Below are positions 1 through 20,534 of a stretch of DNA of 28,560 nt, in pieces (position 1 is the first letter of the stretch; each line of letters begins with the position of its first letter). Both the position numbers and the translations under genes were made by a program. The stretch comes from a virus. The stretch covers positions 1-28,560 of IMG/VR virus record IMGVR_UViG_3300044675_003460, one strand, 5' to 3'. The notes under the pieces were generated by a model. It worked only from the letters and a program-made list of their open reading frames with translations, did no database searches and was not told where the DNA came from.

Positions 1-120
1 ACAATGTCAAAAGATTTAAATATCAAATGTACGTATCATGCAATCCCAATCTTTAGCAATTCATTGACTGCTAAAGATCACGAAAACATTATGTCTGCAT
101 TGAATCAGGCATTTGCATGA
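1..120 (+). CDS. C-terminal fragment of upstream gene, possibly a DegT-type aminotransferase
   Basis: Reading frame 1 is open from the window edge to a TGA at 118-120, giving the last 39 codons of a gene that starts upstream. The tail reads like the end of DegT/DnrJ/EryC1 aminotransferases: a hydrophobic Pro-Ile-Phe strand, then Leu-Thr-Ala-Lys-Asp-His and a final amphipathic helix. The assignment rests on only about 25 residues and is tentative. The stop overlaps the next start as ATGA (117-120), so the two genes are translationally coupled. A sugar aminotransferase would fit the downstream deoxysugar cassette. Confidence 0.45.
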   Translation, partial: TMSKDLNIKCTYHAIPIFSNSLTAKDHENIMSALNQAFA

Positions 121-992
121 AGCCGTTGAGAATAGCATTTGCAGATACACATGATCATCTTGCAACGTTCTTTATATATCTTTTTCAGACTAGATATAAA
201 GTAGATATCGTAGGCATGAGTGAATCGCCGGATTTTTTATTATTCGGTGATGATAACTTTGGTCGTAATAACTTAAATATCACCAGAGATCAATGTACTA
301 AGATATTGTTCACAGGTGAAAATCGTAGACCTGAGAATTTTGATTGCGACTATGCTATTAGTTTTGACCATATATTTGAACCATGGCATTACAGATTACC
401 CTTGTATGTAATTTATATGTGGGCATTAGAGCATATCCATGAAACAAGATTTGATTTTAACTATATCTTTAATCCCGAGATTAAAGAAAAAACAGACTTT
501 TGTACGTTTGTAGTATCGAATCCAAATTGTAATGAGCGCAATGAATTCTTTAATAAGCTAAATAATATTAAACGTGTAGATAGCGGCGGCAAATTGTATA
601 ACAACATCAATGCTAATTTAACAGGCGAAGAAAGCAAAATAAATTTCCTTTCGACAAGAAAATTTAATATTTGTTTTGAACATACTTCTCATCCCGGTTA
701 TACTACGGAGAAAATTCTTCACGCATTCTATGCAGGAACTGTTCCAATTTATTGGGGGTCCGAAACAATTGCAAATGACTTTAATCCTGCCGCATTCATA
801 AATTTACACGATTTCAATAGCCAGGAAGAGGCTATTGCACATATAATGAAGGTTGATCAAGATGACGAACTATATGCATCTTATGTTAATGCTCCAAAAT
901 TTTTAAACGGAATCCCTCCGTCATTTGTAGTATTGGATAACTTCCTTAATTGGTTCGATGCTATAGTGTATAATAAAATTTTAAAACGATGA
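117..992 (+). CDS. GT10 family (alpha-1,3-fucosyltransferase-like) glycosyltransferase
   Basis: The 291-aa protein has the GT10 signature in its C-terminal half: YTTEK (residues 195-199), then AGTVPIYWG ending at 214, and DFNPAAFI (221-228). The equivalent region in bacterial FucT enzymes binds the nucleotide-sugar donor. FTGE at 65-68 matches the family's N-terminal-half motif. There is no signal peptide or membrane helix, so it should act in the cytoplasm or at the inner membrane face. GT10 enzymes usually move fucose from GDP-fucose, but donor and acceptor cannot be read from sequence, and neighbouring genes suggest other deoxysugars are available. The start overlaps the preceding stop and the end overlaps the next gene by 4 nt. 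Confidence 0.85.
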   Translation: MKPLRIAFADTHDHLATFFIYLFQTRYKVDIVGMSESPDFLLFGDDNFGRNNLNITRDQCTKILFTGENRRPENFDCDYAISFDHIFEPWHYRLPLYVIYMWALEHIHETRFDFNYIFNPEIKEKTDFCTFVVSNPNCNERNEFFNKLNNIKRVDSGGKLYNNINANLTGEESKINFLSTRKFNICFEHTSHPGYTTEKILHAFYAGTVPIYWGSETIANDFNPAAFINLHDFNSQEEAIAHIMKVDQDDELYASYVNAPKFLNGIPPSFVVLDNFLNWFDAIVYNKILKR

Positions 993-1699
993 AAATACAA
1001 ACATTTATCTTTAACTGGCGCGGACAGTATGAAAAAACAAAAGAAAAGCAAAAGCAACTGAGTGCCATTGGGGTCGTGCCTGTCGTTATTAATAGTGACG
1101 ACAATCACCGTGAGGACGATCCTAATTGGCACAACATTGGCGAGGACAGTTATTTTACAGCACAATTTTTAAAAGCAATTGAGTTGTTTGATGCGGATGT
1201 AATGTTTCACATTCAAGCAGATGCATCTTATGATAATTGGACTGAAATTTATGCTGGCGCTGAAGAATGTTTTGACACTTACAACTGGGGCATCTATGCT
1301 CCGAATGTAGATTATACATTCTATGATTCTAGTAGAGCTGATCTTAAATCTTTTGATCTAGAAGAGCCTTATTATAAAATGGTTGCAAATCCTGATTGTA
1401 CTTGTTGGTTCATTCATAAAGATATTATTGAGGATGCTAAGAATCGTAATATCGATTTTGCCCCCTATAAAATGGGATGGAGCTTTGATATAGTATATAC
1501 TGCAATTGGTTATATTAGTAAGAGGCCTGTTATCAGAGATTATCGTTACACAATCTCACATCCGCCAGGAACAAACTATAGTAAACAACAAGCTGAGACT
1601 GAGATGCATACGTTTTACTCAAAACTGCCTTCCGATATTCAGACTGCATTTAAATATATTAAACAAGACAAAGAACATTTAGGAAAATATTATGCTTAA
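989..1699 (+). CDS. putative glycosyltransferase (GT-A-like)
   Basis: The 236-aa soluble protein starts in an ATGA overlap with the GT10 gene. The N-terminus (MKIQTFIFNW) and an acidic stretch near residues 73-82 (MFHIQADASY) resemble the first strand and the metal/nucleotide-binding segment of GT-A glycosyltransferases. The C-terminal half is rich in Tyr, Trp and Asp, including a WSFD motif of the kind that contacts sugars. No exact family is recognised. The operon position between glycosyltransferases supports a role in building the same glycan. An unrelated sugar-binding function is possible. Confidence 0.55.
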   Translation: MKIQTFIFNWRGQYEKTKEKQKQLSAIGVVPVVINSDDNHREDDPNWHNIGEDSYFTAQFLKAIELFDADVMFHIQADASYDNWTEIYAGAEECFDTYNWGIYAPNVDYTFYDSSRADLKSFDLEEPYYKMVANPDCTCWFIHKDIIEDAKNRNIDFAPYKMGWSFDIVYTAIGYISKRPVIRDYRYTISHPPGTNYSKQQAETEMHTFYSKLPSDIQTAFKYIKQDKEHLGKYYA

Positions 1700-2624
1700 A
1701 AACTTCTTTGAGGTTAATGATTTAATTTCAGAAAAATTGCAATCAAATGAACCTTTTTCATTATTGCGTCTAGATAATAGTGCGGGGTATGTTCTACAAA
1801 ATCTGTTTAACAATACTAGTATATCCTCACAATTCTTTAATAATACTGTTATTTCTTTTGAGGGTGGGGTAACTCCAGGTACAACTGACTATTATATAGA
1901 TACCATTGTTCCTATGTTAACACAATCCATGAAAGAATGTGATATACTCGGATTTGTTGATATGTCATTAGCCATACAAAATGATACGACCTTTACAAAA
2001 ACATTCGGCGAAAAGCCTATGTTCTTTGGGCATGATAGTCTTATGGTTTTGGATCCTATCGGTGTTCTAAGAGGCGGGCTATGCGGAACATTTAAGGTCG
2101 AAACACCTTGGACAAAATATTTAAAAAATAAAAAAGTATTAATTATATCTACGCATTGTGAAACTATTAAATCGCAATGGCAACAGATTGATAAAATATG
2201 GGGAGACAATTTAGATTTAGTTGCACCGTTTGATTTAGTAGGATGTATTCGTACTCCGTACCATCCTTTAATGGATGACAGACAATATCCTGGTTGCGAA
2301 ACGTGGGAACAAAATGTAGAATACATAAAAAATGAAATTGATAAGTATGAATATGACGTTTTAATTTCTGGAGCATCCACATCTTCTCCTATATATGTAG
2401 AACATGCGAAAAAACGAGGCAAAGTAGGTATACAAACTGGCGGCGTGCATCAGTTATTCTTCGGCATATTAGGATATCGTTGGTCACCTGAGGCAAACAA
2501 CGGATATAGAGTATGGGCAGAATATTATAATGAACATTGGACATATCCTTTTAAAGAAGACGAAGCAAGGAATAAAAATCAAGTAAGACATTTGGAAGGC
2601 AATTATGCCTATTGGAAACCATGA
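1692..2624 (+). CDS. GT-D-type (DUF1792-like) putative glycosyltransferase
   Basis: This 310-aa protein overlaps the preceding gene by 8 nt and has an AGGAAAA-type ribosome site. Near the N-terminus it has a conserved-looking LLRLDNS segment (about residues 24-30), comparable to the Arg-Asp/Glu region of the DUF1792/GT-D family. Near the C-terminus the order 'SGASTSSPIYVEHAKKRGK' then a Gly-rich strand (IQTGGVHQLFFG) matches the 'alpha-helix plus aGxxg' end of GT-D folds. GT-D enzymes transfer hexoses onto glycans of bacterial adhesins. The call is by pattern only; substrate unknown. Its TGA forms ATGA with the RfbH-like gene. Confidence 0.5.
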   Translation: MLKNFFEVNDLISEKLQSNEPFSLLRLDNSAGYVLQNLFNNTSISSQFFNNTVISFEGGVTPGTTDYYIDTIVPMLTQSMKECDILGFVDMSLAIQNDTTFTKTFGEKPMFFGHDSLMVLDPIGVLRGGLCGTFKVETPWTKYLKNKKVLIISTHCETIKSQWQQIDKIWGDNLDLVAPFDLVGCIRTPYHPLMDDRQYPGCETWEQNVEYIKNEIDKYEYDVLISGASTSSPIYVEHAKKRGKVGIQTGGVHQLFFGILGYRWSPEANNGYRVWAEYYNEHWTYPFKEDEARNKNQVRHLEGNYAYWKP

Positions 2625-3946
2625 ATAAACAAGACATCATTAACGGAGTAGCTGCATATTTCCAAAACAAGGCAGCAAATAAGACATGGACTGCCGGTAA
2701 GGATTTTGTAAATTATGCTGGTCCATATTTTGACGAACATGAAATTATGGCGGCAGTTTCTACATTGTTAGATAGCTGGCTTGTAATGGGCGATCAATCA
2801 ATAAAATTTGAGAAACAATTTCCTAAGCAATTTCAAAAGAACTTTGGAATACTTACTAATTCAGGATCAAGTTCTAATTTATTAATGATGTCTACGCTTA
2901 CATCTAAGCGAGGATACAACTTACCTAAAGGTACAAAGGTGTTGATGCCTATTGCAGGTTTTCCTACAACATTAAATCCTACATTACAAGTAGGGTTTGA
3001 ACCTGTGTTTTTAGATATTGAATTGGATACACTTAATTTAGATTTAACTAGAGCGGAAGAACTAATTAAGAAACATGACATTCGAGTAATCACATTTGCT
3101 CACGTCTTGGGCAATCCCCCTAATATGCGTTGGGTGATGGAACTTGTCAATCGTTATGATTTGATTCTATTAGAAGATTGTTGCGATGCTTTAGGTTCAA
3201 CCTATGGCGGACAACCATTGGGATCATTTGGTGAAATGGCATCTTGCTCATTCTATCCAGCACACCATATGACAATGGGCGAAGGCGGATTTGTAGCATG
3301 TAAGAATTATGAGACAGAAGTTATTCTTCGTTCATTTAGAGAATGGGGCCGAGGTTGTTACTGTGTAGGGCCGGAAGCTAATAAATTAAAATGTGGTTCT
3401 TGTGGCAAACGATTTCAAGAATGGATTCCTGAAATGCCAGGTGAAATTTTTGACCACAAATATGTTTATGACGAGATTGGATATAATCTTAAGCCTATTG
3501 AATTACAAGGCGCAATGGGATTAGTTCAATTAGAAAAATTGGGGACAATACATGCACTACGTCGTCGTAATTATAGTTTGCTTTTTGATATCTACAGCAA
3601 GTACGAGGAGTATTTCCATCTACCAAGAGCACAAGAATACTCAGACCCAAGTTGGTTCGCATTCCCATTAACAATTCGGGCGGGATCTCCTTTCAAGCGT
3701 AGTGACATTGTAGATTACTTAGAAGAAAAATTAATTCAGACAAGACCATATTTTGCTGGCAATATTATGCTACAGCCTGCATATTCGCATTTAATGAACC
3801 CTGCAGATGCAAGAGATAATTTTCCAATTGCTACAATGACAATGACTAATACTTATTTCCATGGTACTAGTCCCGTTATTACTCCTGAACAAATTAAATA
3901 TATTGGTGAAGTAGTAGATAGTTTTATGAGTTTATTTGGAGGTTAA
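2621..3946 (+). CDS. rfbH: RfbH-type CDP-4-keto-6-deoxy-D-glucose 3-dehydratase (E1)
   Basis: The 441-aa protein has the DegT-aminotransferase fold but carries the dehydratase hallmark: in SFYPAHHMTMGEGG the PLP-anchoring lysine is replaced by His215. RfbH/E1 enzymes use PMP plus a [2Fe-2S] cluster to remove the C3 hydroxyl from a CDP-4-keto-6-deoxyhexose. Candidate cluster cysteines are Cys187/188 in EDCCDALG and Cys245, 247, 258 and 261 after REWGRG. The Cys spacing in the last group is longer than I recall for enteric RfbH. Full-length for the family (about 437 aa). ATG 2621 is chosen over TTG 2612 because it forms an ATGA overlap. No reductase partner (E3) is visible in the window. Confidence 0.9.
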   Translation: MNKQDIINGVAAYFQNKAANKTWTAGKDFVNYAGPYFDEHEIMAAVSTLLDSWLVMGDQSIKFEKQFPKQFQKNFGILTNSGSSSNLLMMSTLTSKRGYNLPKGTKVLMPIAGFPTTLNPTLQVGFEPVFLDIELDTLNLDLTRAEELIKKHDIRVITFAHVLGNPPNMRWVMELVNRYDLILLEDCCDALGSTYGGQPLGSFGEMASCSFYPAHHMTMGEGGFVACKNYETEVILRSFREWGRGCYCVGPEANKLKCGSCGKRFQEWIPEMPGEIFDHKYVYDEIGYNLKPIELQGAMGLVQLEKLGTIHALRRRNYSLLFDIYSKYEEYFHLPRAQEYSDPSWFAFPLTIRAGSPFKRSDIVDYLEEKLIQTRPYFAGNIMLQPAYSHLMNPADARDNFPIATMTMTNTYFHGTSPVITPEQIKYIGEVVDSFMSLFGG

Positions 3947-3947
3947 T

Positions 3948-4961
3948 ATGCGTGTATGCGATTGGATATCAGATTATCTTTATAATTTAGGCATTGAAAA
4001 TGTACATGGGATTATGGGCGGCGGCGCTAGCGGATTAAATGATGGGTTTATTAAGAATGGTAAAATAAACTATATCTGTTATCATAACGAACAAGGTGCA
4101 GGCCATTCGGCAATGGGCGAAGCAATTTATACCGGTAAAGTATCCGTTGTTAATCCTACTACCGGGTGTGCAGGAACAAATTGTGCCACATCTGTATTAG
4201 ATGCATGGCAAGATGGAGTACCGGTATTATTCATATCTGGCAATGTTAGAATGAATACTTGTTCTAGTTGGATTAATACCACAAAGAACATTAACTTGCG
4301 TAAGTATGGTATTCAGGAACACAATGTTGTTTCTATGTATAAGAACATGACTAAGTATGCTCATTTTATAACAAGCATAGATGAAGTTGCATATGTAATT
4401 ACAAAGGCGTTATATATGGCAAAAGAAGGAAGACCTGGGCCGTGCTGGGTTGATATTCCCGGAGATATACAAACTGCAGAAATGCCAGAAACATATAAAT
4501 TGTTTATTGCAGATGATCCTATTAATCGTATTCATACAAATCTTGACGAATTAAAGAATCAATTAGAACAATCAGAAAGACCAGTTGTGTTAGTTGGTCA
4601 GGGCATTAGACAAACAAATACAGTAGATTCCTTTATTAAATTTATAGAAAAATATAAACTACCATTTGTAACAACATACGGCGCAACCGATTATGCAAGT
4701 AACGATCATGAATTAAATATGGGAGCAATTGGTATCAAGGGTTGCCGATATGGAAATTTTGTAGTACAAAATGCAAGTCTATTATTAGTTCTTGGTAGTA
4801 GTTTAAATAGTAGTGTGATAGGTTATGACCCTAAACAGTTTAGTATTGGTAGCAAAAAGATCGTTGTTGATATTGATTCTGACGAACTAAATAAAGATAT
4901 ATTAGACATAAGTGAAAAATACAATATGGATCTTTCCGATTTCTTTGAGGTTATGGTATGA
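3948..4961 (+). CDS. ThDP-dependent acetolactate-synthase-like enzyme, Pyr and central domains (split half 1)
   Basis: The 337-aa protein covers the first two of the three domains of acetolactate-synthase-type ThDP enzymes. The Pyr domain has the activating glutamate (Glu48 in HNEQGAGHSAMGEA) and the PTTGCAGTN / DGVPVLFISG strands. The central Rossmann-like domain follows (RPVVLVGQG and LLLVLGSSLNSS). It stops where the PP domain should begin, and that domain is the next ORF. ATG 3948 is chosen over TTG 3936 because GGAGG at 3938-3942 sits at the right distance. Beside RfbH, a YerE-like role (adding a two-carbon acetyl branch from pyruvate to a 3,6-dideoxy-4-ketosugar) is attractive but inferred. 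Confidence 0.8.
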   Translation: MRVCDWISDYLYNLGIENVHGIMGGGASGLNDGFIKNGKINYICYHNEQGAGHSAMGEAIYTGKVSVVNPTTGCAGTNCATSVLDAWQDGVPVLFISGNVRMNTCSSWINTTKNINLRKYGIQEHNVVSMYKNMTKYAHFITSIDEVAYVITKALYMAKEGRPGPCWVDIPGDIQTAEMPETYKLFIADDPINRIHTNLDELKNQLEQSERPVVLVGQGIRQTNTVDSFIKFIEKYKLPFVTTYGATDYASNDHELNMGAIGIKGCRYGNFVVQNASLLLVLGSSLNSSVIGYDPKQFSIGSKKIVVDIDSDELNKDILDISEKYNMDLSDFFEVMV

Positions 4962-5698
4962 ATAGAACTGAATGGATAGACAAATGTAATCATTGGAAAA
5001 ATAAATGGCCGGTAATACAACAGGAATATTTACAAGCCGGTGACGAAATTAATATGTACGCAGTGATAGATGCTATAAACAAATATAGTAAACCAACTGC
5101 TACAGTAATGGCAGACGCGGGTAGTGGGTATTATATCGGAAGCACTGCATTTAAACCCAAACAAGGACAACGATTTGTTTGTAGCGTATCCCAAGCAGAT
5201 ATGGGCTGGGCAGTTCCTGCGGCAGTGGGCGTAGCATTAGCGAGTAAACAACAAGCTATAACATTCTTAGGCGATGGCAGTTTTATGTCTAACATACAAG
5301 AACTTGCCGTTGCTAAACAACACAATCTAGATATTAAATTTGTCATTCTCAATAACAACGGATATTCTTGTATTCGGAATACGCAAACAAAATACTATCA
5401 AGGTAGAGTATATGGTACAAGTAATACTACAGGTATTTGGTTTCCATTGTTTGAGAATGTAGCAACTACATTTGGTTTAGGTTATAAAGAAATAAATGAT
5501 GTAGATCAGTTAAAAGAATTTGAACATATATTAAACACTCCTGGCCCTATGCTTGTAGTTTGTAAATGTAATACAGACCAAGAAATTGCTCCAGCACAAG
5601 GGCTAAAGAATGGTAAACAAGCAGGCCTGCATGATTTATTCCCATTTTTAAGTGACGAAGAATTAAACCGAGAGATGATTGTAAAATATAATGTATAA
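4958..5698 (+). CDS. ThDP-dependent acetolactate-synthase-like enzyme, PP domain (split half 2)
   Basis: The 246-aa protein holds the ThDP diphosphate/Mg-binding domain: GDGSF at 105-109 and NNNGY at 132-136 give the GDG-X24-27-NN signature. ADAGSG and MGWAVPAAVG precede it as in acetolactate synthase and related decarboxylases. It begins in an ATGA overlap (4958-4961) with the first half, and together they total about 583 aa, the usual length of the one-chain enzyme. No domain appears to be lost, so the pair could form a working heteromer. A single-base indel creating an artificial break is the alternative. Confidence 0.82.
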   Translation: MNRTEWIDKCNHWKNKWPVIQQEYLQAGDEINMYAVIDAINKYSKPTATVMADAGSGYYIGSTAFKPKQGQRFVCSVSQADMGWAVPAAVGVALASKQQAITFLGDGSFMSNIQELAVAKQHNLDIKFVILNNNGYSCIRNTQTKYYQGRVYGTSNTTGIWFPLFENVATTFGLGYKEINDVDQLKEFEHILNTPGPMLVVCKCNTDQEIAPAQGLKNGKQAGLHDLFPFLSDEELNREMIVKYNV

Positions 5699-6479
5699 AG
5701 TTTTTAAGTGTGTAGCATGTGATTCTAATAATGTTGAATACAAAGAAACTGGTTTAGCTAAATTTATACAATTTCGTATATTCGGAAATAATACAGATAA
5801 TGGCATGCCAATAGTTGGTATGAAATGTTTAGATTGTTCTTTTGTTGGATCTGCTGATAGATTCACAGATGATGAAACTAAAATATATTATAACGGATAT
5901 AGAGACAACGAATATACGCGTACTCGAATTATGTTTGAGCCAGGATATACTGATATAGAAAAGTTTAATAGTATTGCCTATAAAACACATAGACAAGAAG
6001 GTATACAAAAATTAATTAAACAATATATCGATGTTGATCAAATACATACAGTATTAGATTACGGTGGCGACAATGGATCGGTTATTCCTGATTGGTTTGA
6101 TAAATCTAAAAAATATGTTTTTGATATTAGTAACGTTCCATTGACATCTAAGGTTGAATCAATATCTCTTAATGAAAACAAAATTTTTGATTTTATATTA
6201 TGCACGCATCTATTAGAACACGTGTCTGATCCTAATGATACATTGGGTAAAATAAAAGAACATGCGAATGATAATACCTGGATTTATTTTGAAATACCAA
6301 ACAACCCTGCACCGTACATTGGTATTATCCACGAACATATTAATTTCTTTAATATTAAATCAGCCACGGCATTGTTAAATCGTAATGGATTTAAGGTCAT
6401 AGATGTGTGTGAGTATGGGTTTGATTCATTTGCTGTCGCCCATAAAAATAATTTATGTATATTAGCTAAGCTTTATTAA
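5691..6479 (+). CDS. class I SAM methyltransferase with N-terminal zinc-ribbon, sugar-methyltransferase type
   Basis: The 262-aa protein begins with two CxxC pairs (Cys7/10 and Cys46/49) that look like a small zinc ribbon, followed by a Rossmann methyltransferase domain. Motif I is VLDYGGDNG, and CTHLLEHVSDP is the typical segment after motif IV. The layout, CxxC ribbon then methyltransferase, is seen in C-methyltransferases of deoxysugar pathways, such as TylCIII-like enzymes, although those are longer. The EIPNNP and HINFF segments are also typical. It overlaps the ThDP gene by 8 nt, so it probably works on the same nucleotide sugar. Exact methyl acceptor unknown. Confidence 0.72.
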   Translation: MYKVFKCVACDSNNVEYKETGLAKFIQFRIFGNNTDNGMPIVGMKCLDCSFVGSADRFTDDETKIYYNGYRDNEYTRTRIMFEPGYTDIEKFNSIAYKTHRQEGIQKLIKQYIDVDQIHTVLDYGGDNGSVIPDWFDKSKKYVFDISNVPLTSKVESISLNENKIFDFILCTHLLEHVSDPNDTLGKIKEHANDNTWIYFEIPNNPAPYIGIIHEHINFFNIKSATALLNRNGFKVIDVCEYGFDSFAVAHKNNLCILAKLY

Positions 6480-6491
6480 ATTGAGTATTTT

Positions 6492-7274
6492 ATGAAAATA
6501 TTAGTTGTAGGCGCCGGCGGATTTGTTGGCTCATATATCGTTCCGTTATTATCTAAAAAACATGAAGTTATTCCTATCTATAAAAATGAGATAGATCTTT
6601 TAGATAATCAAACAGTTACAAAGATATTAGATGTTCTTCGTCCCGATGTTGTTATTAATTGTTTAACCTTCGGCGGCAAAACAGAACTACACGAAAACAA
6701 TGCTTCGAATGTTGGCAAGAACATGTCATTGTTCTATAACTTCTATACTAATGAGGATAAATTTAAATTTTATATTAATTTGGGTTCTGGCATTGAAAAA
6801 ACCAATGCAAGAAATGCGTATGTATTTTCCAAAAGATTAATTAAGAATTTGTGTTTTGGTCCTAAGTATCTGACACTAAGAATATATGGATGTTTTGGTG
6901 CAGGTGAACCCTCGCATAGATTGTTAAAACAATACAATGCAACCGAAGGTGAATTTAAAATAAAGAATGATCGCGAATTCGACTATTTTTCAGTACAAGA
7001 TTTATACAATGTTATTGATTATTCATTGAATAATTATGCCACTAGCGATTGGTTAGTAGGTAATGATATAGATTGTGTATATCGGAACAAAATTACCCTA
7101 AGTGAATTTTTGGGGATGTACTGCGATATAAATAATATAGAGAAAAGATTTGTAGTTGAATCTACAAGTGATGAAAAATATATAGGCCATCCAGTTGATA
7201 TCAGTACTCTAGAAGAGTTCGGAGGATTGAAGTTGTATGGCATTGGACATGGATTGAAAGTTTATAATGACTAA
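6492..7274 (+). CDS. extended SDR, NAD-dependent epimerase/dehydratase or 4-ketoreductase
   Basis: The 260-aa protein opens with the nucleotide-binding signature GAGGFVG (7-13) after a beta strand. It has a NLGSGIE strand and the catalytic YxxxK as YVFSK, about residues 115-119. It is shorter than RmlB-type dehydratases and resembles RmlD or fucose-synthase type reductases that finish a nucleotide-deoxysugar by reducing a 4-keto group. This is a plausible last step for the product of the RfbH and ThDP enzymes. It overlaps the RmlB-like gene by 8 nt. The 12-nt gap before it is the only break in this part of the operon. Confidence 0.75.
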   Translation: MKILVVGAGGFVGSYIVPLLSKKHEVIPIYKNEIDLLDNQTVTKILDVLRPDVVINCLTFGGKTELHENNASNVGKNMSLFYNFYTNEDKFKFYINLGSGIEKTNARNAYVFSKRLIKNLCFGPKYLTLRIYGCFGAGEPSHRLLKQYNATEGEFKIKNDREFDYFSVQDLYNVIDYSLNNYATSDWLVGNDIDCVYRNKITLSEFLGMYCDINNIEKRFVVESTSDEKYIGHPVDISTLEEFGGLKLYGIGHGLKVYND

Positions 7275-8217
7275 AGTTGTTTATGTTACAGGGTGCATTG
7301 GATTTATAGGTTATCATGTAACCAAAAAATGTTTAGATGCGGGGTATCATGTTTTAGGGATAGATAGTAAAACATATGCGAGCAATCTAAATTTACTTCC
7401 AGACTTATTAAAGTATCCAAAATTCAAATTTTTAGAATTGGATATTAATGATCTAGACAGACTTCATGACTGCGATTATTTTATTAATACCGCAGCTGAA
7501 ACACACGTCGACAATAGTATTGTTAGTTCAGATGTTTTCCTTAGAAGCAACATCAACGGTGTCCATAAAATACTAGAACTAATTAAAGCTATACCAAAAG
7601 CTCGTAGACCAATATTATTACACTTTAGTACAGATGAAGTGTATGGGGATATCGTAGATGGGTTTCATACTGAAACAGATTTATTAAAACCAAGCAATCC
7701 GTATTCAGCGACAAAAGCTGCAGCTGATATGTTGGTAACAGCATGGGCAAGAACATATGATGTTCCCTATGTAATTGTTAGACCAACTAATAATTATGGA
7801 ATTGGTCAATATGTTGAGAAGTTTATTCCTAAAGCAATTAAAAATTTATCTCTAGGTAGACCTATTATTATGCATGACAACGGATCTCCTAGAAGAACTT
7901 GGTTGCACGTATCCGATACAGCAACTGCAGTATTAAAAATTATTGAATCGGGAACAGTTAACGAAACCTACAATATATCAGGCAATTATGAGGAACAAAA
8001 TATTATTGTTGCTAAACATTTAGTTGATTTATTCTTTAATTGGAATGTTATCCACTATACAGAATTTATGGATTTTTCAGAAAAGCGTGTCGGCCAAGAT
8101 GTTAGATATGCTATAGATGATTCTAAATTAAAAGCATTGGGTTGGAAACCAGAAGCAGAGTTTAAAGATTCATTAGTTGAGATTGTGGAATACTATAAAA
8201 AGAATTTTATATGGTAA
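7267..8217 (+). CDS. RmlB-like nucleotide-glucose 4,6-dehydratase
   Basis: The 316-aa extended SDR has all the RmlB landmarks: GxxGxxG as TGCIGFIG (Gly9, 12, 15), AAETHVDNSI (76-85), FSTDEVYGD with Thr122-Asp123-Glu124, and YSATK with Tyr146 and Lys150. VRPTNNYG, a strand for sugar binding, and RTWLHVSD complete the set. RmlB converts dTDP-glucose to dTDP-4-keto-6-deoxyglucose. The homologous CDP-glucose enzyme would supply RfbH; from sequence the closer match is to RmlB. No nucleotidyltransferase (RmlA or RfbF) is in the window, so the activated sugar must come from the host or from upstream. Confidence 0.87.
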   Translation: MTKVVYVTGCIGFIGYHVTKKCLDAGYHVLGIDSKTYASNLNLLPDLLKYPKFKFLELDINDLDRLHDCDYFINTAAETHVDNSIVSSDVFLRSNINGVHKILELIKAIPKARRPILLHFSTDEVYGDIVDGFHTETDLLKPSNPYSATKAAADMLVTAWARTYDVPYVIVRPTNNYGIGQYVEKFIPKAIKNLSLGRPIIMHDNGSPRRTWLHVSDTATAVLKIIESGTVNETYNISGNYEEQNIIVAKHLVDLFFNWNVIHYTEFMDFSEKRVGQDVRYAIDDSKLKALGWKPEAEFKDSLVEIVEYYKKNFIW

Positions 8218-8909
8218 AAATTATATCATTAAGTGTTTGGGGAAATGATCCCAGATATATCGTTGGCGCAAATCGTCAGTATGAATTAGCAAAGAAATAT
8301 TATCCTGATTGGGAATTTAGAATTTATACTGATGATAAAAATAAATTTTCTAATCTAACAGATGCTAACATTATAGAAGTAACTGATGGAACATATGGTA
8401 TGTTCTGGAGGTTCAGAGCAATGTTTGAGGATGAATCTAATATTGTAATTGTCAGAGACTCGGATAGTAGAATTACTTTCAGAGAACATCAAGCAGTCAA
8501 TCAATGGTTGCAATCTAATGAAAAATTCCACACATTCCGAGATCACGAAGCACATTTTGAATTCCCTATTATCGGATGCGCATTTGGATACAAGGGTAAA
8601 TTTGGAACTCCTATATTAAATTTATTAAATTCTTATACATCTCAGATGAATTATTATGTGGGCGATCAAATATTTTTAAGAGATGTAATTTGGCCATTAG
8701 TTAAAGACGATGCAATGATTCATTGCATGAAAGATGGATGGTTCAAAGAAACAAGAACACAATTAGTTAATCCATATGATTTTTGTGGCAACGGATATGA
8801 CGAAAATGATATGCCGTTGTATCCGCCAACTTTAGCGGAATGCGCAGGATTTGACCCTAAAAATACCTCTAAAGAATTTAAATTTAACAAAGGCATTTTA
8901 ACAAAATGA
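8211..8909 (+). CDS. putative glycosyltransferase with DxD motif
   Basis: The 232-aa soluble protein has a hydrophobic strand ending in RDSDSR, with Asp83 and Asp85 forming the DxD that would hold a metal and a nucleotide sugar. GANRQYELAKKYYPDWEFRIYTD near the start (residues 19-41) resembles proteins from polysaccharide clusters that begin with a GT-A-like 'x-Y-Y-P-x-W-x-x-x-x-Y-x-D' segment. The start overlaps the dehydratase gene by 7 nt and the stop overlaps the next GT2 by 4 nt. Acceptor and donor cannot be read. Confidence 0.62.
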   Translation: MVKIISLSVWGNDPRYIVGANRQYELAKKYYPDWEFRIYTDDKNKFSNLTDANIIEVTDGTYGMFWRFRAMFEDESNIVIVRDSDSRITFREHQAVNQWLQSNEKFHTFRDHEAHFEFPIIGCAFGYKGKFGTPILNLLNSYTSQMNYYVGDQIFLRDVIWPLVKDDAMIHCMKDGWFKETRTQLVNPYDFCGNGYDENDMPLYPPTLAECAGFDPKNTSKEFKFNKGILTK

Positions 8910-9700
8910 AAAGCTATTTTATTACTCCCGTATTCAATAAAGAGAATATGATTGGGAAAGTACTTGAAGGAATTGCGCAATCTGTTGCAGGTAAATATAC
9001 TGCAATTTTTATTATTGATGGATGCACTGATAAAAGCGAAGAAGTTATTAAGAGCTATAACAATCCAAATATTGTTTTATTGCATGCCCCGAATGTTCAT
9101 GAGATTAAAAGTTTAAATATTGGTCTATCATATATTAGAGATAATTGCAATCCCAACCCAAATGATTTAATATTCACAGTACAAGACGATGTAATTATTG
9201 AAGAAGAAAATATTGATATACTATTTACTAATTTGTTTGAGGAATATACTGATTTAGGATACATGTCTTTTAGATTGGGTATCAGTATGCAATTAGCGGG
9301 TGATGGTATATCTGAATATAACTTTGCAGAGTCTGAATTTGGACATTGGAAACAATTAGGTCTAAAACATTTTCGGGAAATTAAACACGGTGATTTAGTT
9401 GAAGCTGAAGCAGTTATTAGAAGTCCTACTTGCGTTCTATGGAAGCGTTATCAGGAGGTAGGATTCTACAATGACGATCTTGCTCCTTGCGGTTACGACT
9501 GCCAAGATTTTAGTATTCGTATGAATATGAATGGATATCGCAATGGTGTATATGCTTTAAAATATAGAAGCGATGTTGATTGGGGTTCTACAAGAGAAAA
9601 GGCTGAAACAGAAGTTAATTCTAAGATGGGACAAATACAGGAACGCAATAGACAATATCTTGCAAGAACATATAGAAATTATTTTGAGGGAAAACGATGA
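8906..9700 (+). CDS. family 2 glycosyltransferase
   Basis: The 264-aa protein starts with a GT2 beginning (YFITPVFNKENMIGKVL), followed by a strand with an Asp-containing turn (FIIDGCTDKSEEVI) and QDDVIIEEEN at about 92-101 as the metal-binding region. A late region (DDLAPCGYDCQDFSIRMNMNG) matches the ED/QD catalytic-base area of GT2 enzymes. There are no membrane helices, which is unlike processive GT2 synthases. It lies in a row of overlapping glycosyltransferase genes and is probably one step of the same glycan. Donor unknown. Confidence 0.77.
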   Translation: MKSYFITPVFNKENMIGKVLEGIAQSVAGKYTAIFIIDGCTDKSEEVIKSYNNPNIVLLHAPNVHEIKSLNIGLSYIRDNCNPNPNDLIFTVQDDVIIEEENIDILFTNLFEEYTDLGYMSFRLGISMQLAGDGISEYNFAESEFGHWKQLGLKHFREIKHGDLVEAEAVIRSPTCVLWKRYQEVGFYNDDLAPCGYDCQDFSIRMNMNGYRNGVYALKYRSDVDWGSTREKAETEVNSKMGQIQERNRQYLARTYRNYFEGKR

Positions 9701-10422
9701 GTGAAGTGACTATTATAACAGCAACAACTGGTTCTAATTATCTTCACGATAATATTAAATCGGTTCAATTGCAAACACATAAAGATATTCAGCATCTAAT
9801 TGTTGTTGATGGTGAGGAACATTTTGAGAAGGTTGCTGCTATATTAGCAGAGCACGATTTTCCAAATATAGATATGGTTGTTTTGCCTTATGCTACAGGT
9901 AAAGAACAATATAATGGTCACCGAATCTATGGCGGATTTACCCACATTGCAAAAGGTGATTACATTGGTTACCTAGATGAAGATAACTGGCTAGAGCCAG
10001 AACATGTGGAAGTATTGCTTGATACTGTAAAAGATAATCAATGGGCAGCAACCTTGCGTAAGATTGTAGATAACGAAGGTAAGTTCATTTGTAATGATGA
10101 TTGCGAAAGTCTGTGTAATTGGGAATCGGTTATTAGAGATTATTTTGTAGATGTTAATTGTTTCTTCTTCACCAAACCTCTTGCGCTTCAATTAAGTCCT
10201 ATTTGGTATAGACGTGCAAGACATCCAGACGATCAACCTGAAGTAGATCGAGCATTGACGTACACGCTAAAAGATAATAAAATAGCATGTGAGGTGACGG
10301 GAAAGTATACTGTAAACTACCGAGCAGGAAATAGAGCAGATTCGGTTCAAGCTAAATTTTTCCTGCAAGGTAATGAAATAATGAAACAAAAATATAATGG
10401 AGAGCTACCATGGCAGAAATAG
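9697..10422 (+). CDS. family 2 glycosyltransferase
   Basis: The 241-aa protein has the GT2 opening VTIITATTGSNYLHDNIKSV (4-23), then HLIVVDG and YIGYLDEDNWLEPEHVE with the Asp-x-Asp that binds donor and metal. This LDEDNW version is common in single-domain bacterial and phage GT2 enzymes. A pair of Cys residues (ICNDDCESLCNW, about 129-140) is unusual within the core but no function is claimed. It overlaps the previous GT2 by 4 nt and the DUF3310-like gene by 13 nt. Confidence 0.8.
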   Translation: MSEVTIITATTGSNYLHDNIKSVQLQTHKDIQHLIVVDGEEHFEKVAAILAEHDFPNIDMVVLPYATGKEQYNGHRIYGGFTHIAKGDYIGYLDEDNWLEPEHVEVLLDTVKDNQWAATLRKIVDNEGKFICNDDCESLCNWESVIRDYFVDVNCFFFTKPLALQLSPIWYRRARHPDDQPEVDRALTYTLKDNKIACEVTGKYTVNYRAGNRADSVQAKFFLQGNEIMKQKYNGELPWQK

Positions 10423-10727
10423 ACTACAAATATAATGAGGGTGGGTTAATTAAAGAGTTTCAAGAATACATTGATGCAACATATGGACAACATTATTCAA
10501 TGAATAGATTCCAAGCATCCGAGTTTATTATTGATAATGGGCATGGTGTAGGATTTACTGCAGGCAATGTAATGAAATACGTCCAAAGATATGGCAAAAA
10601 AGCTGGTCGTAACAGACAAGACTTGTTAAAGGTTTTACACTACGCATTGATGTTGTTATATGTGCATGATCTTGAAACAGGCGAAGGCAATGCTGATAAT
10701 TTTGAAATACGTAAGGTAAATAAATGA
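10410..10727 (+). CDS. DUF3310-like small phage protein (sometimes called nucleotide kinase)
   Basis: The 105-aa protein carries the DUF3310 pattern: an N-terminal Tyr/Glu region and then FTAGNVMKYVQRYGKK followed by a helix with DLLKVLHYALMLL. The 'GN-hhKY-h-R-x-G-x-K' core is characteristic of this family, frequent in tailed phages and often labelled nucleotide kinase without strong proof. It sits between the glycosyltransferases and an SDR and overlaps both, so it is co-transcribed with them, although its role is probably in phage DNA or nucleotide metabolism. Confidence 0.75.
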   Translation: MAEIDYKYNEGGLIKEFQEYIDATYGQHYSMNRFQASEFIIDNGHGVGFTAGNVMKYVQRYGKKAGRNRQDLLKVLHYALMLLYVHDLETGEGNADNFEIRKVNK

Positions 10728-11599
10728 GCACTATTCTTCTAGGTTCAAGCGGGTTTCTAGGCCCACAAATATTAGAAAAATATCCTGATATTGTTTCTGT
10801 TGGTCGCACAAAACCTGCAACAGGAATGAAGCACGTGGATTGTCCTACATTGGAGCATCTACCTGAAGTTCTAGACAAATTAGATTTTGATAAAGTGATT
10901 ATGATGATTGGTAGTTCTAATCATACAGAATTAAATTGTCAGAATATGTTAGCGATTGAAAAGAATGTAATACCGTTGAAAAAGGTATTTGCATATTTCA
11001 AGAATAGACCAATTAAAAAGCTATTAAGTTTTAGTTCTATTCTTTTATATGATCGCAGTAAAATGACTTTGCCGGTTGACGAATCACAACCATTAAGTAC
11101 TTATCAGAATGAATACATTTTCAGTAAGTTCTTAGGCGAAGAAGTGGCAAAATTTTATTCTGATGTACCTAACATCATTGTGAGATTAACAAACATTTAC
11201 GGACCAACTACAGCATTAGATAGACCAGATTTGGTTAATCAATTAGTTGAAGGTTTGGTTATTCGTAAAAAAGCACGAGTATTAAATTTAAGACCACAGC
11301 GAGATTTTATTTATACTGCAGATGCTTCTGACGCAATTGTAAAATTATTGGATACTGATTATACAGGTCCCGTTAATGTTGCTACAGGTCAAATGCATTC
11401 CATAAGTGATGTTGTTAAAATTTTAGAAAAACTTTCTGGAATTAAAATTGAAATAGGTGACGGTCCAGCAACTGGACATATGCAATTTGTTTCGGACAAT
11501 ACATTGATTAAGAAATTAATTGAATGGGAACCGAAATATAATTTGGAAGAAGGTCTAACAGAGACCTATGAAAAAATGATGGCTATGTATGGGAAATAG
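10724..11599 (+). CDS. extended SDR, NAD-dependent epimerase/dehydratase
   Basis: The 291-aa protein has a nucleotide-binding GSSGFLG (7-13), a LLSFSSILLY strand and the catalytic YIFSK (Tyr-x-x-x-Lys) near residues 126-130, followed by VRLTNIYGP and RDFIYTADASDAI. These are landmarks of UDP- or GDP-sugar epimerases, dehydratases and reductases. Substrate cannot be fixed. It is the last gene of the glycan operon; the first base of gp45 is 70 nt downstream behind its own promoter. It is the second non-RmlB SDR in the cassette, implying more than one sugar-modifying step. Confidence 0.78.
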   Translation: MSTILLGSSGFLGPQILEKYPDIVSVGRTKPATGMKHVDCPTLEHLPEVLDKLDFDKVIMMIGSSNHTELNCQNMLAIEKNVIPLKKVFAYFKNRPIKKLLSFSSILLYDRSKMTLPVDESQPLSTYQNEYIFSKFLGEEVAKFYSDVPNIIVRLTNIYGPTTALDRPDLVNQLVEGLVIRKKARVLNLRPQRDFIYTADASDAIVKLLDTDYTGPVNVATGQMHSISDVVKILEKLSGIKIEIGDGPATGHMQFVSDNTLIKKLIEWEPKYNLEEGLTETYEKMMAMYGK

Positions 11600-12327: not shown

Positions 12328-12999
12328 ATGTTTGGAAATTATAATAAAAATGTTCATTCTCAAAATGGAGAAGATGGAATTATCGAAGAAATTCTTCATA
12401 GGTTAGATGTTGATTATAACACCTCTTGGTGTGTAGACATTGGTGCATGGGATGGTATACTGTATAGTAATACATACAATCTTGTAAAAAAAGGTATGCA
12501 CGGTGTGTTTGTAGAAGGTGCAAGTGAAAAAATTCCTGATTTAAATAATACAGCTAAATTTTATAAAAAAATTATTCCAATTGAAGCATTTGTATCACAC
12601 AATCCCGCAGACGAAAATAGTCTAGATAATATTTTAAAAAGAACACCTATACCTAAAGATTTTGAATGTATATCAATTGATATTGATTCGTATGATCTTG
12701 CTGTGTGGGAATCACTTAAAGAATATTCTCCTAAGATTGTAGTTATCGAAGTTAATAGTAGTATTGCACCTGGGATTGTATGGCGCAATGGAGATCCCGA
12801 ATCTATACGACAAGATGGATTGCCGGGCGGTAATACATTCTCCGCAACAAACGAAGTTGCTAAAGAAAAGGGATATACTTTAGTTATGCATACAGGAAAC
12901 AATATCTACATTAGAAATGATTTGATTGAAAAAGTCGGGGTCCCTACCGACATTGTAAGTAATCCAGATTCGTTGTTCAATCGAAACTGGCTGCGTTAA
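12328..12999 (+). CDS. FkbM-like methyltransferase inserted between gp45 and gp44
   Basis: The 223-aa protein has the FkbM-type layout: HSQNGEDGIIEEIL (11-24), then WCVDIGAWDGILYSNT with the SAM-binding Gly-rich loop, VFVEGASE after strand 2, and CISIDIDSYDLAVWESL as the motif-IV region. FkbM-family enzymes O-methylate sugars or other hydroxyls. It starts one base after the gp45 stop and has no good ribosome site, so it likely depends on coupling with gp45. It is cargo in the replisome operon, and may act on the glycans made by the left cassette. Confidence 0.75.
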   Translation: MFGNYNKNVHSQNGEDGIIEEILHRLDVDYNTSWCVDIGAWDGILYSNTYNLVKKGMHGVFVEGASEKIPDLNNTAKFYKKIIPIEAFVSHNPADENSLDNILKRTPIPKDFECISIDIDSYDLAVWESLKEYSPKIVVIEVNSSIAPGIVWRNGDPESIRQDGLPGGNTFSATNEVAKEKGYTLVMHTGNNIYIRNDLIEKVGVPTDIVSNPDSLFNRNWLR

Positions 13000-18435: not shown

Positions 18436-19149
18436 TTAATTCCAATATTTGGAAGAATCTAGGCGATCCCAATATGCCTTGTTGTTTCGGTTTATAAAAT
18501 TCTTAATTAGATACCATCCCATACCGAAGTATCCCATCTTTTTAAACCTGCGAGAATCTTGGCCAAAGTAGTGATTTGCAATTTTAAACTTCTTTGGGTT
18601 ATACATTCTTGATAGAAAGTAATCTTCAGATGTTACTGTCTTTTCAGGGAACCCGCCATATTCTTCAAATCTATCTCTGCGAGTCAACATAAATGCCCCG
18701 ATTGCAAATGGGGAAAAGAATTTTAATATGTGATTTATAATATTAAAAATTGTAAATCCAATTATTGCACGTAAGTCTTTGTCATAACATTTAATGTTTA
18801 ACCCAATTAGATCTAAGTCATTGGACACAATTTCGTTAACGGCATCTTTGATTACTGTGTTTTTAAAGAACCGAACATCTGCATCAATGAATAAAATGTA
18901 GGGAGTAGTAACTAATCTTGCTCCGTTATTCTTGGCAAATGAAACTGGCCCACCTTCAATAATTTCAACATTTAATGAAGAGCTATTATCCTGTATAACT
19001 TGTCTAGTATTGTCAGTAGAGCAATCGGCAATAATGATTCTTGTATCGCCAATGTCTTGTTGGCGCAAAGCATCTAACAAATGATGAATATAGTTTTCTT
19101 CATTCTTACAAGGCACAACAATCGTAATTTTATTACTGAGGTTCATCAT
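18436..19149 (-). CDS. family 2 glycosyltransferase, membrane-associated type
   Basis: The 237-aa protein begins with GT2 strands (ITIVVPCKNEENYIHHLLDAL), followed by IIIADCSTDNTRQVI and ILFIDADVRF with the Asp-x-Asp for donor binding. SEDYFLSRM is the typical ED motif. A hydrophobic region around residues 127-158 may contact the membrane. This is a second place in the window with GT2 enzymes, now leftward, next to an LpxH-like phosphoesterase; the pair suggests lipid or LPS modification. Start ATG 19149 (or 19146) overlaps the phosphoesterase stop. Confidence 0.83.
   Translation of the reverse strand: MMNLSNKITIVVPCKNEENYIHHLLDALRQQDIGDTRIIIADCSTDNTRQVIQDNSSSLNVEIIEGGPVSFAKNNGARLVTTPYILFIDADVRFFKNTVIKDAVNEIVSNDLDLIGLNIKCYDKDLRAIIGFTIFNIINHILKFFSPFAIGAFMLTRRDRFEEYGGFPEKTVTSEDYFLSRMYNPKKFKIANHYFGQDSRRFKKMGYFGMGWYLIKNFINRNNKAYWDRLDSSKYWN
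18438..18452. repeat. 15-bp direct repeat, copy 2
   Basis: Second copy of AATTCCAATATTTGG, within the last codons of the GT2 gene (Lys-Tyr-Trp-Asn-stop, read leftward). With copy 1 at 18177-18191 it brackets the small membrane-protein gene, as expected if that gene was inserted by recombination in, or duplication of, the GT2 3' end. Confidence 0.6.
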
Positions 19150-19891
19150 CTTTTTCCTTAGTCCAGGTAACTATTTCCCATCGACCATCATGATGCTCTA
19201 CAAGTGCCGTACATGATTCAACCCAGTCACCATCATTCATATAGATAATTCCATCTATCTCTTTGATCTCAGCATGGTGTATGTGGCCACATATAACTCC
19301 ATCATACCCACGCTTCTTACAATAGGCAGCTAGATTCTTTTCAAACTGAAATATAAAGTCTACTGCTTTTTTTACTTTGTGTTTAAGGAACTTGCTAAGG
19401 CTAAAGTACCCAAAACCCATACGATGACGTATCCAATTGAACTTGCTATTGAGTGACAAAATGAAGTCATATGCTTTATCTCCTAAAAATGATATCCACG
19501 GTGCTAGCCTTGTTATACCATCAAACAAGTCACCGTGTGTTACTAAATAGTGCTTACCATCAGCACCTATGTGTTCTATTTGATTATGAATTTCTACTAG
19601 ACCAAAACTAAAACCATACGGTATCATTGGTCTTAAGAACTCATCGTGATTTCCTGCAACATAAACAACCCGCGTACCGCGTTTAGCGTGACCTAATACT
19701 CTGCGCACAACGTTGGTATGGCTTTGTTTCCACCGCCAGTTGTTCTGTTGTATACGCCATGCATCAATAATATCTCCGACCAAATAGAGGGTGTCGCCGG
19801 TATTATGTTTGAGAAAATTATTTAACTTGTTTGCTTGACAATCACGAGTACCTAAGTGAACATCACTTATAAATATCGCACGATATTTCAT
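19133..19891 (-). CDS. LpxH-like metallophosphoesterase (UDP-2,3-diacylglucosamine diphosphatase family)
   Basis: The 252-aa protein has the full metallophosphoesterase set: SDVHLG (Asp10, His12), GDIID (Asp40), GNHDE (80-84), THGD (118-121) and a CGHIHHA near residue 209. The RDCQANKL and [10 protein letters not shown] segments and later [12 protein letters not shown] follow the LpxH-related branch common in proteobacteria as 'UDP-2,3-diacylglucosamine diphosphatase'. LpxH yields lipid X for lipid A synthesis, but this branch includes proteins of unproven activity. In a phage it may change the host outer membrane or act on another pyrophosphate. It overlaps ErpA by ATGA. Confidence 0.82.
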
Positions 19892-20211
19892 ACACTAAAC
19901 GAACTACCGCAACCGCAAGTGGATTGAGCATTTGGATTAGTTATAACAAACTGTGAACCTTGTATATCTTCTTTGTAATCCACAGTTGCGCCTGTTAGAT
20001 ATTGCATGCTCATGGCATCAATTAATATTTTAGTTTTTTCAAGCGGCATTTCGAAATCGTCTTCGTTCATTATCTCATCGAATGTGAATCCATAACTCAT
20101 TCCGCTACATCCTCCACCCTGCACAAATGTTCTTAAACATAAGTCAGGATTACCTTCTTCTGCGAAAAGATCTAGAATTTTTGTTTTTGCTGATTCTGTT
20201 ATTGTTATCAT
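19888..20211 (-). CDS. erpA: A-type Fe-S carrier (ErpA-like)
   Basis: The 107-aa protein belongs to the HesB/IscA/ErpA family: [11 protein letters not shown] with Cys35 and the C-terminal TCGCGSSF with Cys99 and Cys101, the three cysteines that bind Fe or [2Fe-2S]. The sequence ([29 protein letters not shown]) is nearest to ErpA-type proteins, which hand clusters to target enzymes. ATG 20211 is preferred over 20238 because it forms ATGA with the stop of iscA. It is the last of three Fe-S genes, ahead of the LpxH-like gene. Confidence 0.87.
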
Positions 20212-20534
20212 ACTCTGAAACTTTCTCCGCATCCGCATCGGTCACGTTCGTTGGGGTTTTTAAAATCAAATCCTTCATTAAGTCCATTACGAACCCAATC
20301 CATTACTACTCCGTTTAAGTAAGCTAAACTTTTAGTATCTACTAATACTACAAAATCTTTTTGAGCGTAGTTTGTTGTGCTAACGTCAGTAACATAGTTG
20401 TCAACATATTCCATGGTATACGCTAAACCACTACAACCAGTAGTCTTTACACCCAATCGAATACCGACTCCTTTGCCTCGTTTCTGAAGTAGGGTTTTAA
20501 CTTTCTCATATGCCTTTTCAGTTAATGAGATCAT
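20208..20534 (-). CDS. iscA: A-type Fe-S carrier (IscA-like)
   Basis: The 108-aa protein has the IscA signature: [11 protein letters not shown] with Cys34 and DRCGCGESF with Cys100 and Cys102. IscA-type proteins bind iron or [2Fe-2S]/[4Fe-4S] clusters and pass them on. It overlaps iscU by 17 nt and erpA by 4 nt. Two A-type carriers in tandem are unusual for a phage; they differ clearly in sequence, so this is not a recent duplication. Confidence 0.88.

Follow-up and report, generated by a model that had tools for sequence, protein, structure and literature searches.

The stretch of DNA analysed here, called the window below, is the entire IMG/VR virus record IMGVR_UViG_3300044675_003460 (28,560 bases), a fragment of a T4-like phage. 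Between positions 2621 and 8217 it carries a sugar cassette on a single (plus) strand, whose neighbouring genes overlap by 4-8 bases or sit 1-12 bases apart. In order, these are predicted to encode an RfbH protein, i.e., an E1-type, pyridoxamine 5'-phosphate (PMP)- and [2Fe-2S]-dependent nucleoside diphosphate (NDP)-4-keto-6-deoxyhexose 3-dehydratase (2621..3946), the N-part (3948..4961) and the C-part (4958..5698) of a thiamine diphosphate (ThDP) enzyme resembling a split YerE-like carboligase, an S-adenosylmethionine (SAM) methyltransferase (5691..6479), an extended short-chain dehydrogenase/reductase (SDR) proposed to reduce a branch ketone (6492..7274), and an RmlB-like NDP-glucose 4,6-dehydratase of the deoxythymidine diphosphate (dTDP) type (7267..8217). 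The original prediction had placed these genes in one overlapping operon, and all of them are indeed present with this tight spacing. We infer, with a probability of about 0.74, that during infection the cassette gives rise to a nucleotide-linked 3,6-dideoxy-4-C-branched hexose; its reactions, nucleotide, product and branch, target glycan and benefit are predicted from gene content, family, residues, clade, linkage and block exchange.

The record is a metagenomic fragment without an isolate, which could favour reading the cassette as non-functional cargo or as bacterial contamination taken for phage. This we consider barely conceivable. The window encodes a T4-type DNA polymerase, clamp and clamp loader (gp43, gp45 and gp44; phrog_262, phrog_223 and phrog_168), and a longer contig with the same genes at 100% protein identity (L002, in record G001) has SbcD- and SbcC-type (gp47/gp46-type) genes upstream. 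The gene product gp23 was found above cut-off in 13 of 50 related records, the reading frames are open, and the RfbH and split-ThDP active sites are conserved across many contigs.

RfbH exceeds the cut-off of the curated model NF011936 (433.1 bits, cut-off 423) and its best PDB match is the Yersinia E1 enzyme (3bcx, E 3.2e-94). Its His215 aligns with the E1 histidine that replaces the pyridoxal 5'-phosphate (PLP) lysine (Lys in 3bb8). Together with Cys188, Cys246, Cys248 and Cys261, which we take to correspond to the four [2Fe-2S] ligands of E1, it is invariant in all 13 aligned phage RfbH sequences, as the original prediction of a histidine and cluster cysteines would have it. The cysteine pattern is Cys188-X57-Cys246-X1-Cys248-X12-Cys261, with the last spacing five residues longer than in E1. 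Such a histidine and four cysteines are marks of E1 and SpnQ (PMC8987622, drawn on, like the other papers cited here, through excerpts). Family and residues point to an NDP-4-keto-6-deoxyhexose 3-dehydratase.

The two ThDP open reading frames (ORFs) overlap by 4 bases (ATGA) and are best read as the parts of one carboligase. TPP_enzyme_N (PF02776) and TPP_enzyme_M (PF00205) are matched by the first, which holds the PYR and central domains, and TPP_enzyme_C (PF02775) by the second, which holds the PP domain with its GDG...NN motif. As the N-part matches residues 8-340 of JanthE and the C-part residues 356-574, the split is placed in the domain linker. JanthE and 5ahk are single polypeptides, unlike the window pair, a feature that we do not hold to define YerE-like enzymes. 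A frameshift artefact as the origin of the split was rejected, given that split pairs occur in many contigs with the cut at the domain linker. JanthE (8rph), described as a YerE-like, ketone-accepting enzyme (PMC12188165), ranks first in the PDB for both parts: for the N-part (1.5e-47) before 5ahk (1e-42) and acetolactate synthase isozyme 1 (1.3e-36), and for the C-part (5.9e-30) before acetolactate synthase isozyme 1 (1.9e-23), with 5ahk lower at 1.8e-13. The PHROGs family phrog_11199, a ThDP family of unknown function, also matches.

A phylogeny of 44 rows was built, including 33 phage enzymes (13 split, 20 fused), five from bacteria, JanthE, 5ahk and three acetolactate synthases. In it, the phage and bacterial YerE-like enzymes, JanthE and 5ahk are parted from the acetolactate synthases with a support of 100/99; among themselves, the three acetolactate synthases are united with weak support (85/26), and both 5ahk and the outgroup form long rows. 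The findings that, according to the original prediction, would speak against it include the ThDP pair clustering with acetolactate synthases of amino acid biosynthesis and a loss of active-site residues. The topology joining the acetolactate synthases with the phage-split clade was rejected (approximately unbiased (AU) test, p = 1.7e-5), and all 24 split sets, among them the window copies, retain HNEQ/HHEQ with the PYR-domain glutamate as well as GDG...NN. It is also highly improbable that the pair is a host-derived acetolactate synthase serving auxiliary amino-acid or acetoin metabolism. Most of the NCBIfam matches listed are acetolactate synthases, but the N-part scores 165.9 against the acetolactate synthase model TIGR00118 (cut-off 538.35), and the 25 best matches listed per part are all far under their cut-offs (best PRK08978, 182 versus 738). 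Tree, AU test and family cut-offs led us to reject an acetolactate synthase identity.

Five bacterial relatives of the ThDP pair were found by genome scan, and three of the five have rfbH at a distance of one gene from the ThDP gene. In the two of these loci that were examined, from Novosphingobium/Sphingomonas (L084 and L086), RfbF, RfbG, RfbH and a ThDP enzyme that shares 33% identity with the phage N-part (ThN) form one cluster. They differ from the phage in their fused ThDP ORF (647 and 635 aa) and in having cytidine diphosphate (CDP) pathway genes, RfbF and RfbG, above cut-off; in L086 alone, a NeuB/PseI-like gene (below cut-off) separates rfbH from the ThDP gene. The clade and the proximity of RfbH in bacteria support the yersiniose-like logic originally proposed, in which a branched dideoxysugar is formed, and the pair appears to be a YerE-like ketone-branching carboligase. 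Among 50,697 annotated phages, the best rows for its relatives (the best 15 of 53 and the best 15 of 36 records) are 24-32% identical and none reaches 60%; several of the rows listed are labelled acetolactate synthase or lie within bacterial records.

The RmlB-like protein has 2hun as its best PDB match (E 1.4e-61) and scores only 67 bits against the CDP-glucose model TIGR02622. It carries STDEVYG and YSATK, which we take to contain the TDE and YxxxK catalytic motifs of RmlB. Since the dehydratase is of the dTDP type, a dTDP-linked rather than a CDP-linked substrate is more likely. Thus, of the CDP-4-keto-6-deoxyglucose first suggested as the substrate, the NDP-4-ketosugar type is retained and the CDP linkage is not favoured. 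Likewise, the check for RfbF/RfbG that had been advised came out negative: neither was seen, the NTP_transferase domain (PF00483) has no match in either of the two window-identical records, and the dehydratases of the window and L002 are of the RmlB, guanosine diphosphate (GDP)-mannose 4,6-dehydratase (GMD) and GDP-fucose-synthase types, with no CDP-glucose type among them. A CDP-glucose pathway was therefore rejected.

The original prediction called the SDR (PF01370/PF04321) 4-ketoreductase-like, and the gene and its fold bear this out: the AlphaFold2 model (pLDDT 93.5) has the fold of nucleotide-sugar 4-ketoreductases, with RMD, GDP-fucose synthase and an RmlD ortholog as top Foldseek hits, and epimerases and other extended SDRs further down within the first 50. 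Its role as a ring 4-ketoreductase is less favoured than that of a branch-ketone reductase. The context was examined in 80 related phage loci (those kept of 144 RfbH matches), of which 77 enter the RfbH tree and the following table; L029, L067 and L072 were omitted for truncated context, with part of a ThDP gene seen where the contigs of L067 and L029 end. The SDR family is found in 58 of 63 loci with a ThDP enzyme and in none of the 14 without (Fisher p 1.4e-11), one of the latter (L032) having a different SDR-like ORF by eye. As these data hold only three independent contrasts (sign test p 0.25-0.5), the association was rejected as strong proof and retained as a hint. Since the branch would consume the C4 ketone and the SDR family tracks the ThDP enzyme, we put the SDR step behind that of the ThDP pair, with the newly formed side-chain ketone as its more plausible substrate. 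An ordinary, unbranched 3,6-dideoxyhexose, made by RmlB, RfbH and the SDR as ring 4-ketoreductase with an unrelated ThDP pair, seems quite improbable to us. Its SDR would have the right fold, and RfbH does occur with no ThDP enzyme found (14 of the 77 loci), but those are the loci lacking the SDR family, and the window ThDP gene directly follows rfbH and falls in the ketone-branching clade. The methyltransferase (Methyltransf_23, PF13489, E 9.6e-18) has an N-terminal CxxC...CxxC by eye. Its family occurs in two of the 80 loci, both window-identical, and it probably provides a tailoring step, predicted to be O- or C-methylation.

Taken as a pathway, the RmlB-like enzyme would convert NDP-glucose, most likely host dTDP-glucose, to NDP-4-keto-6-deoxyglucose, as its family suggests. 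RfbH would then remove the C3 oxygen with PMP and its [2Fe-2S] cluster, taking electrons from a host reductase, to give an NDP-3,6-dideoxy-4-ketohexose. The ThDP pair would decarboxylate a 2-oxo acid, in the simplest case pyruvate, and transfer the acyl unit onto the C4 ketone, leaving a tertiary alcohol. Finally, the SDR would reduce the branch ketone, the methyltransferase would methylate the product, and glycosyltransferases of the same run would attach the sugar to a host surface glycan or to a phage component. In related phages, replacement of the block between rfbH and SDR/rmlB would place other branches on the same 4-keto core.

Such replacement can be followed at the DNA level. L002, identical to the window, and L004 are 98.8% identical over the 2,425 bases up to the end of rfbH, share a single 77-base piece (75%) over the following 3.3 kb, and are again 95.8% identical over 938 bases starting 13 bases into rmlB, falling to 74% after it; the proteins encoded in the slot are distant relatives (ThN 47% identical). 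Similarly, L002 and L006 share 91.3% identity up to where rfbH ends and 92.4% over the 2.4 kb that begin with the SDR gene; the DNA separating these two stretches shows no match. Related phages exchange the segment from the end of rfbH to SDR/rmlB as a single block. An RfbH tree of 77 rows, 68 of them different, was built by a quick method; on it, the ThDP class changes at least 22 times, where the least possible is 5 and the shuffled mean 43, which points to a class that is partly inherited and often exchanged.

Overall, 63 of the 80 loci have a ThDP enzyme near rfbH, drawn from three superfamilies. Assigned by our own gene families, 26 have a fused and 21 a split decarboxylase-type enzyme, two a split enzyme together with an E1-type pair, nine an E1-type pair and five a split transketolase. 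The labels E1 and transketolase come from Pfam matches of a single member of each class: in the E1-type pair, E1_dh is above cut-off and the partner matches Transket_pyr at 25.3 (cut-off 27); in the split transketolase, both Transketolase_N and Transket_pyr are above cut-off. The 17 loci without a ThDP enzyme comprise the three truncated ones, a group of 12 with a sulfotransferase-like gene, and L019 and L032, which have more than 6 kb on either side of rfbH. Seven of the 12 stop less than 4 kb past rfbH, with the same gene order as the longer ones. In this group (L047, L049, L050, L053, L055-L057, L060, L061, L063-L065), RfbH is followed by a shared gene family and the sulfotransferase-like gene (one member tested) and mostly preceded by an epimerase-like gene, and no ThDP, SDR or RmlB of the cassette families is present.

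Later scans, which kept 80 of 123, 80 of 109, 79 of 211 and 78 of 80 matches, started from the ThDP enzymes. RfbH lies within 4 kb of the split ThDP enzyme in 69 of 75 scored loci, and within this distance in 58 of 78 E1-type, 28 of 79 transketolase and 38 of 76 fused loci. Left out were L170, L171, L173, L174 and L175 of the 80 split loci, which scored nearer to fused ThDP enzymes, and L414 of the fused set; the returned repeats L027 and L052 (E1b) and L044 (fused) were counted once. The phage subunits are 206-221 (E1a), 176-209 (E1b), 202-219 (TktN) and 158-159 aa (TktC) long. Among the fused enzymes, 25 of 26 have a GDG, GEG or CDG motif (L038 has none) and 21 of 26 the HEQ pattern. With these motifs kept, catalytic activity seems likely for the split enzymes and for most of the fused ones, and is less certain for the E1 and transketolase pairs. 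A few operons (L236 and L258) carry, after RfbH and RmlB, two ThDP enzymes that belong to different superfamilies, and possibly make doubly branched sugars.

Some loci adjoin genes that could supply unusual donors. L025 encodes an acetaldehyde dehydrogenase (TIGR03215, 359; cut-off 282) and a 4-hydroxy-2-oxovalerate aldolase (TIGR03217, 328; cut-off 286), and both families recur in L037, L058, L062 and L081, making five loci. The three fused ThDP enzymes of the aldolase loci share the CDG of JanthE, found in none of the 22 other motif-bearing fused ones, and those of L025 and L037 fall in one clade with JanthE (100/100). ErwE takes 4-hydroxy-2-oxo acids and JanthE has CDG (excerpts of PMC12247030); as a 4-hydroxy-2-oxo acid is the aldolase product, the aldolase genes fit a donor supply. 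Seven other loci (L004, L005, L017, L036, L068, L073 and L077) pair a fused ThDP enzyme with a dehydroquinate-synthase relative, a family labelled f24 and an SDR. The relative (L004:3969-4991) scores 370 against TIGR04425 (AroB-related cyclizing phospholyase, cut-off 400), the f24 profile matches HpcH/HpaI-type aldolases only (11 of 11 matches, weak, best E 1.9e-5), and the ThDP enzyme has a GEG motif in five of the seven. This set may make an unusual donor. In addition, a class I/II aminotransferase precedes six split sets.

It is an even call whether T4-like phages hold, beyond the window, a combinatorial branched-sugar system, with a fixed RmlB-RfbH core, an exchangeable slot of carboligases from three ThDP superfamilies, some with donor genes, and relatives that make different, even doubly branched, higher sugars. 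That E1a and TktN are without the canonical GDG motif lowers its odds. Swapping of the branch enzyme probably serves to vary the sugar on host or phage.

Several observations weigh against these readings. The RmlB-like protein stays under its own model (TIGR01181, 300 bits, cut-off 365.1), and the SDR is below the curated equivalog cut-off. The nucleotidyltransferase and E3 reductase that had been noted as missing are also scarce in larger relatives. NTP_transferase, absent from both window-identical records, is found in four of the 50 related records (two above cut-off), and Fer2, indicative of the E3 reductase, in 0 of 50, an absence that is no proof as record completeness is not given; five of the records exceed 200 kb, including the 326-kb G025, which has NTP_transferase matches, and control searches for the two domains were positive in 14 of 14 and 12 of 14 genomes. 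An E3 reductase of the phage's own was rejected, and host enzymes for dTDP-glucose supply and reduction would have to complete the path. RfbH seems to serve another sugar too, as the 14 loci with no ThDP enzyme found suggest. None of the donor-type gene families was found beside the window rfbH, which leaves pyruvate as the simplest guess. Since the later scans were seeded from RfbH-adjacent loci, their RfbH adjacency is no independent (blind) estimate, and RfbH is absent within 4 kb in 51 of 79 transketolase and 20 of 78 E1-type loci, some of them truncated. As for motifs, HEQ was not found in five of the 26 fused enzymes, E1a has GDM in place of the canonical GDG (11 of 11), and TktN shows the motif in two of five by one pattern and in none of five by another. 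To our knowledge, no sugar structure from any such phage has been described.

The missing reductase also bears on the details of the chemistry. SpnQ functions with ferredoxin or flavodoxin and their reductases, so that E3 is perhaps dispensable; without reductase, SpnQ transaminates (PMC8987622). It is possible that RfbH runs an SpnQ-like amino transfer, or that the ThDP pair branches another position or ketosugar (C3, or the 4-keto sugar before RfbH). The lack of Fer2 would agree with the former and the finding that E1-type ThDP enzymes branch C3 or C4 (PMC12247030) with the latter. However, YerE and ErwE use a CDP-3,6-dideoxy-4-keto sugar, the product of RfbH, according to excerpts of the same paper, and the phage RfbH has the catalytic-site histidine, not lysine, and the four cysteines. 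We consider such departures unlikely and keep to 3-dehydration followed by branching at C4.

Compared with the yersiniose A pathway and its YerE-like enzymes (YpYerE, JanthE, ErwE and PpYerE), for which the Yersinia gene list is in part general background, the cassette is alike in having an RfbH-type 3-dehydratase near a JanthE-clade ThDP carboligase, and in the proposed C4 acyl branch followed by ketone reduction. It differs in being carried by a phage, in its split ThDP enzyme, in an RmlB-type instead of a CDP-glucose 4,6-dehydratase, and in that no nucleotidyltransferase or E3 was found. The other two phage classes also have counterparts: E1a/E1b, found in the rfbH slot, resemble AviB1/AviB2, Pau11/Pau12 and KbDH (E1-type), and TktN/TktC, in the same position, the split transketolases of miharamycin and amipurimycin (PMC12247030, PMC4753412). 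Unlike the phage genes, those systems sit in antibiotic clusters, and phage E1a has GDM for GDG. The three ThDP superfamilies named for ketosugar branching in excerpts of PMC12247030 match the three phage classes, and the transketolases of this kind are there called unproven. Thus, the kind of chemistry is known from yersiniose, erwiniose and avilamycin-type branching (PMC12247030, PMC4753412). As far as our database and literature searches go, what appears new is the phage setting, the split enzyme, the RmlB start and the swappable three-superfamily slot; in the open-licence literature, no paper was found that joins phage, RfbH and ThDP, and excerpts of PMC10653327 and PMC11295528 each name rfbH once as a viral gene.

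If the proposed pathway is true, phages build new carbon skeletons and do not merely move sugars. The change of a branch by a one-block swap between nearly identical flanks would point to strong selection on the exact sugar, possibly through superinfection exclusion, receptor change or masking of phage parts. The combinatorial proposal, if true, would amount to a viral route towards carbon-carbon-branched sugars and extend split transketolases as ketosugar branchers beyond Streptomyces. The slot would also provide, as a natural library, ThDP enzymes that are candidates for accepting ketones, likely with donor-making partners adjoining.

Further sugar genes surround the cassette. A GT-D-like putative glycosyltransferase (1692..2624, plus strand; PF22882, 23.2 bits, cut-off 27) overlaps rfbH, and its family stands immediately upstream of rfbH in 28 of the 80 loci. 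A GT10 fucosyltransferase (117..992; PF00852, PF18025) and two GT2 glycosyltransferases (8906..9700 and 9697..10422; PF00535) are on the same strand. In L002, the sugar region sits between the SbcD/SbcC-type genes and the polymerase/clamp genes, in the order GMD (TIGR01472, 545 bits, cut-off 415), GDP-fucose-synthase-like protein (440 bits, below the cut-off of 500), DegT-family protein, two unassigned ORFs, GT10, GT-D-like, RfbH cassette and two GT2. Because GDP-fucose-type genes stand upstream of the RfbH cassette, it appears that a fucose-type sugar is made by the phage in addition to that of the cassette.

Nucleotide-sugar gene clusters are likewise found in the cyanophages S-H68, S-SM2, P-TIM68 and S-CAM7. 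RfbH is 41% identical in S-H68 and four others, and the E1-type ThDP enzyme 42% in S-SM2 and P-TIM68; in the cyanophage stretches fetched (L095-L101), RfbH was not found together with a ThDP enzyme. S-CAM7 differs in having a DegT-type protein beside GMD and GDP-fucose synthetase. Lipopolysaccharide genes have been described in a hypervariable region of T4-like pelagimyophages (excerpts of PMC7029224).

With regard to iron-sulphur proteins, the minus strand of the window (19888-20952) carries a phage-borne assembly set, consisting of an IscU-type NifU_N protein and, next to it, two HesB/IscA-like ORFs, of which one was tested and matched Fe-S_biosyn. As a fixed partner of RfbH, such a set was rejected, with NifU_N in only six of the 50 related records. 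In L071 (11892-13055), and also in L074 and L078, an LdpA-like protein (NF045992, 130 bits, cut-off 450, tested in L071) with two 4Fe-4S-type motifs is encoded near the ThDP gene and might locally supply RfbH with electrons.

Elsewhere in the window, a further epimerase/dehydratase-like protein (10724-11599, PF01370) lies on one side of the clamp gene and a protein that is FkbM-methyltransferase-like by eye, with no Pfam match, on the other (12328-12999). On the minus strand, a calcineurin-like phosphoesterase (LpxH-like by eye) adjoins a GT2 glycosyltransferase (19133-19891 and 18436-19149), and two repetitive proteins follow, one Asn/Thr/Ser-rich with a signal-like start by eye (24758-25972) and one made of repeated WSWG units, RCC1-like by eye (26010-27128). 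Among the related loci, families f80 and f81 are cupin-like and HAD-like by eye.

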